Assembly: GCA_003557545.1 (NCBI GenBank)
Contig: PWOD01000050.1
Location: forward strand, 1 to 9,015
Source: a bacterium
GTDB taxonomy: Bacteria > T1Sed10-126
Length of the DNA: 9,015 nucleotides
Direction: 5' to 3'
The position numbers and the translations under genes were made by a program. The notes beneath the pieces were generated by a model, which saw nothing but the letters and a program-made list of their open reading frames with translations, searched no databases and had not been told where the DNA came from. This document shows, piece after piece, positions 1,032 through 2,744 of this stretch (position 1 is its first letter; every line of letters starts with the position of its first letter).

Positions 1032-1060
1032 CTAAATCAGCCGCTGCCAACTGCCGAAAA
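1032..1060 (+). promoter_or_regulatory. Candidate sigma-28/SigD flagellar promoter
   Basis: CTAAA at 1032-1036 and GCCGAAAA at 1053-1060 resemble the flagellar sigma factor consensus (TAAA, about 15 bases, GCCGATAA/T). The spacing from TAAA to GCCG is 16, one base longer than the usual 15. The site lies upstream of the flagellin gene, the classic SigD/FliA target. The inferred transcript start is near 1066-1068, giving a leader of about 85 bases. This is assigned by eye from consensus and position. Confidence 0.6.
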
Positions 1061-1100: not shown

Positions 1101-1141
1101 ACTATCTGTCTTAACAATAGAGTCAATTTGCAGATTTTTCT

Positions 1142-1146
1142 GGAGG
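1142..1146 (+). promoter_or_regulatory. Ribosome binding site that sets the flagellin start
   Basis: GGAGG lies five bases before the ATG at 1152. This supports ATG 1152, not the in-frame TTG at 1128, which lies upstream of this site and would add eight residues before the conserved flagellin N-terminus. Confidence 0.85.
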
Positions 1147-1151
1147 AAATA

Positions 1152-2744
1152 ATGCAATCGCTTTTTCGTATAAACAGCAATGTAACCGGAACCGCTGCTC
1201 TCCAGGCCTATAAACAGGCGGCCAGTTCAATGAACCGGGCCGAACAGCAACTGGCCTCAGGCAGCCGGCTTAACAAGGCGGGAGATAATCCAACCGGTAT
1301 GGCAATAACTGAACGATTCCGTTCGGCAGTAGAAGGATTAACCCGAGGACAGAAAAATGCCCAGGACGGGATTTCCATGATACAGACGGCTGAAGGAGCC
1401 CTGAGTGAAATTCAGGAAAAACTATTGGAACTTCGAACCCTGACCGTCAAGGCGGCGTCTGATGCCTTAACCGATTTTGATCGCCAGCAGCTGCATCACC
1501 GGTCACGCTCAATAATCCAGGAGATTAACCGAATCCGTGATATGACTGAATATAATGAAATGAAGCTGCTGATGGGCGGAGTTCAGGAACTGGCAGATAT
1601 CAATGGCGACCGCTGGGAAGATCTCCAGGATGGATTATGGGGGGAGATTCAAGAAGCCATCGAAAGAGCAGCCCAGAGCGGGCAAACCCAGGTTATCAAT
1701 GTTTCTGCCAGTATTATGGCCGAAGGGACAGAAACGCATGAAAGTACCGCTATGGCCTTTGATGTTTTACGCCAGCTAAGCCCCCATTTAACTGATCCCC
1801 GGCAGGATTTAGAAAAGGCCTTTCAATGGTGGTCAGATCGGTTTGAGATCGCCACAGGTGTCAGATTCAACGTAGACTGGGAAGATGAGACGGGTGATGC
1901 ACCTCCCGCCACCACCGCTTCCAACGGAACTCCGCTGGTTTCAGGGACGCAGAACAACTACACCGAAGAGGGCTACGCCGGACAGTTCCGGTTTGGAGTT
2001 GACCCGGGAGTACCAAGCCGCTCAGTCACAATGACAGCCGGTCCACCTCCCCCGAGCGGACTGAACGATTCAATGATTACCATAGGCAACACAGTTTTCA
2101 CTCCTGAAAATCCCCACGCACCCTGGGGTGATGATGGCGACCCGGATACCGAAAGTTTCCGGTTTGTTGCCAAACACACCGTAGGTCTAGCCCTGGGCTG
2201 GCCCCAGGTTGCAGCTATTCCAGAGGAAAACACAGTGATGGATCTCGATTTTGGATCCCACAGACATGCTCACGAACTAACCGGTGAAGTTGAAGAGGCT
2301 GTCCTGCAGCAGTTATTTAACACGCGTGAAACACAACTTGTAGGGGACGGTACAGGACGTGCAACCTTCCACGTAGGAGCCAACCGGGACGACGTCATTA
2401 CTGTCGAATTTGAGCGGGTTGATGCGCGCACATTAGGAGTCTGGTGTACAGATCTAACCACCCGGGACCGGGCTAACCGATCGCTGGAACAGATCGACCA
2501 GGCGATCGAAGAACTGCTTACACAACGAGGGCGGCTGGGGGCTTCCGAAAACCGCTTAAAAAAAGCGCTTGATTTTAGCGGTAATTTGGGAGCTAACACC
2601 AAGATGGCCCGCAGCAAAATAACCGACACCAATATGGCCCAGCAGATAAGCGAGCATACCAGATCTTCAATCCTGGCGGGCCAGGGGGCAAATGTCCTGC
2701 GAACCAGTCAATTAAATATAGAGATGGCCCTGCAGTTAATTTAA
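1152..2744 (+). CDS. Flagellin with an inserted matrixin-like, apparently inactive metallopeptidase domain
   Basis: This is the 530-residue filament subunit, exported by the flagellar type III apparatus. Residues 1-145 form the N-terminal D0/D1 helices: LASGSRLNKAGDNPTGMAI matches the family signature at 34-52 and EINRI is at 124-128. Residues 405-530 form the C-terminal D1/D0 part (VGANRDDVI, LGASENRL, then ALQLI at the end). The C-terminal part shows the usual heptad pattern. Between them, in place of the usual variable D2/D3, lie about 245 residues. Here I recognise matrixin (M10) landmarks in order: AFQWWSDRFEIATGVRF at 223-239, FRFGVDPG at 279-286, FRFVAKHTVGLALGW at 336-350, a Met-turn-like TVMDLDF at 361-367, and ELTGEVEEAVLQQLF at 375-389. 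HExGHxLGLxH is reduced to H342-T-V-G-L-A-L-G-W-P-Q352, so catalytic Glu and two zinc His are absent. Flagellin identity is certain; the insert fold is an inference by eye, and an unrelated variable domain is the alternative. The usual symbol would be fliC or hag. Confidence 0.93.
   Translation: MQSLFRINSNVTGTAALQAYKQAASSMNRAEQQLASGSRLNKAGDNPTGMAITERFRSAVEGLTRGQKNAQDGISMIQTAEGALSEIQEKLLELRTLTVKAASDALTDFDRQQLHHRSRSIIQEINRIRDMTEYNEMKLLMGGVQELADINGDRWEDLQDGLWGEIQEAIERAAQSGQTQVINVSASIMAEGTETHESTAMAFDVLRQLSPHLTDPRQDLEKAFQWWSDRFEIATGVRFNVDWEDETGDAPPATTASNGTPLVSGTQNNYTEEGYAGQFRFGVDPGVPSRSVTMTAGPPPPSGLNDSMITIGNTVFTPENPHAPWGDDGDPDTESFRFVAKHTVGLALGWPQVAAIPEENTVMDLDFGSHRHAHELTGEVEEAVLQQLFNTRETQLVGDGTGRATFHVGANRDDVITVEFERVDARTLGVWCTDLTTRDRANRSLEQIDQAIEELLTQRGRLGASENRLKKALDFSGNLGANTKMARSKITDTNMAQQISEHTRSSILAGQGANVLRTSQLNIEMALQLI

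Follow-up and report, generated by a model that had tools for sequence, protein, structure and literature searches.

A structural flagellin is encoded in the window (the whole 9,015-nucleotide stretch of DNA that was analysed), and its outer, variable (D2-like) region is most likely a catalytically dead matrixin/M10-type metzincin domain with a non-catalytic job. The gene, called from the open reading frame list and Pfam, occupies 1152..2744 on the forward strand, where all features given below also lie, and specifies 530 aa between an ATG start and a stop codon at 2742-2744. Both defining halves of bacterial flagellins are present above the curated cut-offs—Flagellin_N (PF00669) at residues 7-142 (E 1.1e-29) and Flagellin_C (PF00700) at residues 445-529 (E 1.2e-9)—and correspond to an N-terminal D0/D1 half at residues 1-142 (1152..1577) and a C-terminal D1/D0 half at residues 406-530 (2367..2741), the latter opening with FHVGANRDDVI. 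Between them, in the outward-facing variable region, alignments, profiles and a structure model place the matrixin-like insert at residues 162-405 (1635..2366). The initial annotation had described an insert of about 245 residues between the D1 halves with matrixin landmarks in order, and the open reading frame, residue numbering (LLMGG at 139-143, VGANRDDVI at 408-416) and motifs bear this out.

Read from the sequence, these landmarks run from AFQWW....TGVRF (residues 223-239), in which the A and W of AF..W are more than 90% conserved in alignment A5, through PPPP (about 300-303), FVAKHTVGLALG (338-349) and the VM of a Met-turn (362-363) to LTGEVEEAVLQQLF (376-389). A regular expression combining AF..W, xxH..G.xxG and M, written post hoc, occurred in 2 of 200,000 composition-preserving shuffles and is present in both this protein and a paralogue described below. 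Structure models add a predicted first strand at residues 180-188 (1689..1715; both models), a predicted helix A and second strand, about RQDLEKAFQWWSDRFEIATGVRFNVDWE, at residues 216-245 (1797..1886; both models), an FRFGV strand at residues 279-283 (1986..2000; FRFG is 279-282) and a predicted C-terminal helix at residues 379-391 (2286..2324; both models), and an NTVF strand at residues 313-316 (2088..2099) takes the place of matrixin gDIxFN according to hhalign and AF2. Alignments and models agree on a pseudo-zinc helix at residues 336-347 (2157..2192), where H342 T343 V344 G345 L346 replaces HExxH. The full degenerate motif, HTVGLALGWPQ (342-352; 2175..2207; alignments A4/A5), stands in for HExxHxxGxxH, with the H342 codon at 2175-2177, and the Met-turn methionine M363 (2238..2240) is retained in the alignments. 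Directly before the pseudo-zinc helix lies an acid-rich loop, WGDDGDPDT (residues 325-333; 2124-2150), which is nearly invariant between the paralogues (WGEDDDPDT in the other copy) and could be a candidate calcium site.

The assembly to which the window belongs comprises 2.15 Mb in 239 contigs; when searched, it yielded a second flagellin, on contig C82, carrying the same insert at 53% identity. Relatives beyond this genome were not found that could firm up a profile: an insert HMM run against 386 genomes returned only the two own copies, insert peptides gave 28 pattern matches but no relative among GTDB contigs, phage records yielded no match, and a search of one other genome of the same phylum did not turn it up. 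One weak match, in genome G079, runs through 11 stops and was set aside as noise. The other genome of the phylum does encode a 492-aa flagellin (L018:1483-2961), whose insert, about 220 aa long, is a different domain with no relation to the matrixin-like one.

The initial annotation had proposed a direct Pfam M10 match, which was not obtained because the domain is too diverged: searches of Pfam, NCBIfam and PDB sequences gave no direct match to the insert, a two-paralogue profile matched nothing in the PDB, and the window's whole protein, its insert and the paralogue's insert all lack an M10 match above the gathering cut-off of PF00413. A profile was built from M10 domains of bacteria in distant genomes (23 sequences, Candidatus Hydrogenedentota bacterium J006, see below, being excluded). 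It scored the paralogue's insert at 13.7 bits (E 1.9e-6 for one sequence), higher than any of 1000 shuffles, the best of which reached 7.9 bits. Among unrelated flagellin inserts the next best score was 8.4 bits, against 13.6 for the paralogue in that comparison, so that the paralogue's is good, not overwhelming. The window's own insert attained 1.7 bits, which places it 53rd among 1000 shuffles, at noise level. When the two paralogues were combined into one profile and compared with the M10 profile by hhalign, the score was 25.2 (P 0.0039), a value reached by none of 299 column shuffles (best 21.8), and the aligned stretch comprised the strand before the zinc helix and the helix itself, in catalytic register. 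This register was found by hhalign, hmmsearch and MAFFT alike; in three MAFFT modes, H342 was aligned with the first zinc His of every M10 row. The expectation that residue 342 would occupy the position of the first catalytic His thus held, and the top M10 Pfam match expected along with it did not appear. Judged by profile, homology of the insert to M10 is supported through the paralogue and is weak for the window copy alone; significance rests on the paralogue, the paired profile and an M10 flagellin in J006.

This J006 flagellin, noticed because one of the M10 hits lay inside it, was the first match after both paralogues when the two-paralogue profile was run against 219 open reading frames (E 0.025). 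Encoded on RFFU01000088.1 (L025:649-2244), it joins Flagellin_N (4.8e-30), Peptidase_M10 (1e-22) and Flagellin_C (3.3e-20) in one 531-aa open reading frame by Pfam, and its matrixin domain is intact, with HEIGHALGLGH and a Met-turn, unlike that of the window. The insertion site is the same, just before FHVGAN—the J006 domain ends before RRFHVGANQDETI, that of the window before ATFHVGANRDDVI—and a full-length colinear alignment runs along the two inserts, which are 18% identical. Among 386 genomes searched for further M10 flagellins, J006 alone had one. The DNA pattern HExGHxxG ... M ... FHVGAN in its CAC-codon version matched J006 and one contig of UBA2214 among GTDB contigs, the latter by chance and outside any flagellin, and nothing among viral contigs; the CAT-codon version was absent from the 386 genomes. 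No M10 gene was found in the window's own genome.

Structure prediction points the same way, within limits. An AlphaFold model of the full-length protein from two sequences reached pLDDT 42 and was used for secondary structure only; built with no M10 rows, it has a helix at 216-235, a strand at 238-244 and helices at 333-347 and 378-388. A model of the insert, from an alignment of the insert, the paralogue, J006 and 21 M10 rows, attained pLDDT 66.7 and pTM 0.72, with pLDDT below 50 at insert positions 87-114 and 134-149. For this model, with M10 rows in its alignment, the PDB matches listed by Foldseek were metzincins, matrixins included (best E 1.4e-3), and the comparison with matrixins that had been suggested as a check gave, by VIA-align, Z 13.2 to MMP-11 over 149 residues at 3.4 A, a partly circular result since M10 rows contributed to the model; the match to matrixins extends across insert residues 1-229. 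The circularity is eased because the two-sequence model, with no M10 rows, placed much the same elements. The models suggest a metzincin fold.

A reading on which the insert is an unrelated flagellin outer domain of D2/D3 type, resembling a matrixin by chance, would account for the silence of curated profiles and for the shuffle-like score of the window insert alone. Like ordinary D2/D3 domains (Flagellin_D3, Flagellin_IN), the insert sits between the D1 halves and would form a non-catalytic outer filament layer; unlike them, it has no Pfam match and its fold appears metzincin. Indeed, the match to an unrelated D2/D3 family that would have spoken against the matrixin-like reading is absent from Pfam. 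The significance of the paralogue against the M10 profile, the catalytic register recovered by separate programs, the intact M10 flagellin with the same insertion site and the partly circular model matching matrixins all support the reading of the initial annotation, and we consider chance resemblance unlikely.

The two copies also allow the state of the gene to be judged. Identity between the paralogues is 53.5% in the insert, 52.1% in the N part and 51.2% in the C part, and the insert has a pN of 0.325 against a saturated pS of 0.811; being as conserved as the core, with pN far below pS, it looks maintained, not decaying. Upstream of the ATG at 1152, a ribosome-binding site, TGGAGG, can be read at 1141..1146, and a candidate flagellar sigma-28-type promoter, TAAA-N16-GCCGAAAA, was matched by sequence at 1033..1060, with a close counterpart, TAAA-N16-TCCGAAAA, upstream of the paralogue. 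The gene stands alone: its neighbours, named by eye, have no flagellar relation, with a penicillin-binding protein fragment upstream and, encoded on the opposite strand, pyruvate phosphate dikinase, a barrel-like protein and further products. Elsewhere in the assembly are flagellin fragments and a short, 297-aa flagellin on contig C195, close to genes that by eye look like FlgK, FlgL and FliW. The initial annotation envisaged thousands of displayed copies of the fold; with short ordinary flagellins also in the genome, this flagellin may instead make up a small part of the filament. The loss of catalytic residues and the short 297-aa flagellin could be taken to mean that an M10 flagellin has decayed here to a remnant, losing its domain and without present function. 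Open frames in both paralogues, conservation of the insert on a par with the core and the plausible ribosome-binding and sigma-28-type sites make such decay quite improbable, and a frameshift artefact was likewise considered and rejected.

Relative to HExxHxxGxxH, the window motif keeps H342 and replaces the Glu with Thr343, the second His with Leu346 and the third with Gln352. The paralogue's HSVGVALGFPQ has the same losses, so that each copy has exchanged the general base and two zinc ligands out of three for similar residues (Thr/Ser, Leu/Val, Gln/Gln); what both keep is the first His, the two glycines and the Met-turn, and the M363 column, more than 90% conserved in alignment A5, retains the Met-turn of M10 peptidases. 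Matrixins (Peptidase M10, PF00413; MMPs, karilysin) share with the insert the order of strands and helices, the H-x-x-G-x-x-x-G helix, the Met-turn and the C-terminal helix, and differ in having the Glu and the second and third His and in not being embedded in a flagellin. Metzincins require three zinc ligands plus Glu. Because the general base and two ligands are replaced, normal zinc binding and peptide hydrolysis are not expected of the domain, and an intact protease was considered and rejected. An active metallopeptidase with a non-canonical metal site, formed by H342 and other residues, would fit the invariance between paralogues of H342, of the loop W325 G326 D328 D330-T333 and of M363-D366; it is nevertheless highly improbable given the established needs of metzincins, the Thr/Ser and Leu/Val at the general base and second ligand of both copies, and the lack of any other insert His conserved between them. 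With its zinc motif altered and no Pfam match above the cut-off, the insert does not qualify as an active M10 peptidase, and degenerate matrixin-like domain is the most fitting name for it.

Protease-type flagellins of another kind are well described. Flagellinolysins, such as FliA(H) of Clostridium haemolyticum and Hylemonella gracilis FlaMP, are thermolysin/collagenase-like gluzincins of MEROPS M101 with intact HExxH (PMC5595980, PMC7643111), and the survey of these proteins supports the earlier statement that known proteolytic flagellins keep that motif (PMC5595980). They resemble the window protein in displaying a metallopeptidase-type domain, set in the flagellin variable region, on filaments, and differ in being active gluzincins that combine HExxH with a distant Glu ligand, whereas the window insert is metzincin-like and degenerate, has HTVGL in place of that motif and lies in a protein with no HExxH anywhere. 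Despite the shared architecture, a degenerate flagellinolysin is scarcely credible, as NCBIfam NF033876 reached 49.5 bits against a cut-off of 205, with its best stretch at residues 382-462 on the C-terminal flagellin side, and profile, Foldseek and VIA-align signals favour M10 metzincins. Because flagellinolysins are gluzincins, the label of dead flagellinolysin does not suit the insert, which is a domain of another, metzincin type, and such an insert, degenerate here and intact elsewhere, is new relative to M101 flagellinolysins.

For the preferred reading, a degenerate metzincin domain in a structural flagellin, selection on the insert as strong as that on the core leads us to propose a non-catalytic job. 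Flagellins are exported unfolded via the flagellar secretion channel and polymerise by their D0/D1 helices. By analogy, this flagellin would be exported unfolded through the channel, its D0/D1 helices would polymerise and the insert would fold outward on the filament surface, its fold kept and Thr/Ser, Leu/Val and Gln closing off its active site. The flagellum would then probably display an inactive protease fold, for binding or structure and not for cutting, the most likely role being that of a non-catalytic filament-surface domain. Such a repeated module may bind protein or peptide ligands via the former substrate cleft, which is speculative, or may simply shape the outer layer of the filament.

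In a tree of D0/D1 regions, the two paralogues were joined with 100% support and grouped with flagellins of their own phylum (82/87), and the J006 M10 flagellin likewise grouped with those of its own phylum (95/88). As each flagellin lies within its own phylum, separate capture or domain exchange is favoured over inheritance of a whole M10 flagellin; it is more likely that M10-type inserts were captured or exchanged as domains, with moderate tree support, and the inserts of J006 and the window may or may not share an origin. The J006 protein apparently belongs to a class of proteolytic flagellins separate from the M101 flagellinolysins, which would make metzincins a second, unrelated class of protease-type domain on flagellar filaments. 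We found no report of matrixin or metzincin flagellins in the open-access literature and, to our knowledge, none has been reported so far. We tentatively suggest, as a possibility somewhat short of even, that matrixin-type domains were captured by flagellins in at least two small phyla, independently of the gluzincin flagellinolysins, and that here one became a conserved pseudoprotease, turning a would-be cutting flagellum into a repeated binding array. J006 and the window form an apparent active/inactive pair, which allows a direct test of whether catalysis or binding is the reason that filaments keep enzyme folds. The motif loss seen here is the opposite of the conservation of catalytic motifs stressed in the flagellinolysin survey (PMC5595980).

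Two further loci deserve mention. In the J006 genome, a frame of more than 900 codons (L072, contig C13) begins with Flagellin_N and continues with long non-flagellin stretches, and is possibly a giant multi-domain flagellin. Directly upstream of the paralogous flagellin, on the same strand, a GLUG-like repeat protein was read by eye (L057:8382-9923, minus strand), the C-terminus of which looks, also by eye, like a T9SS-type C-terminal sorting domain.
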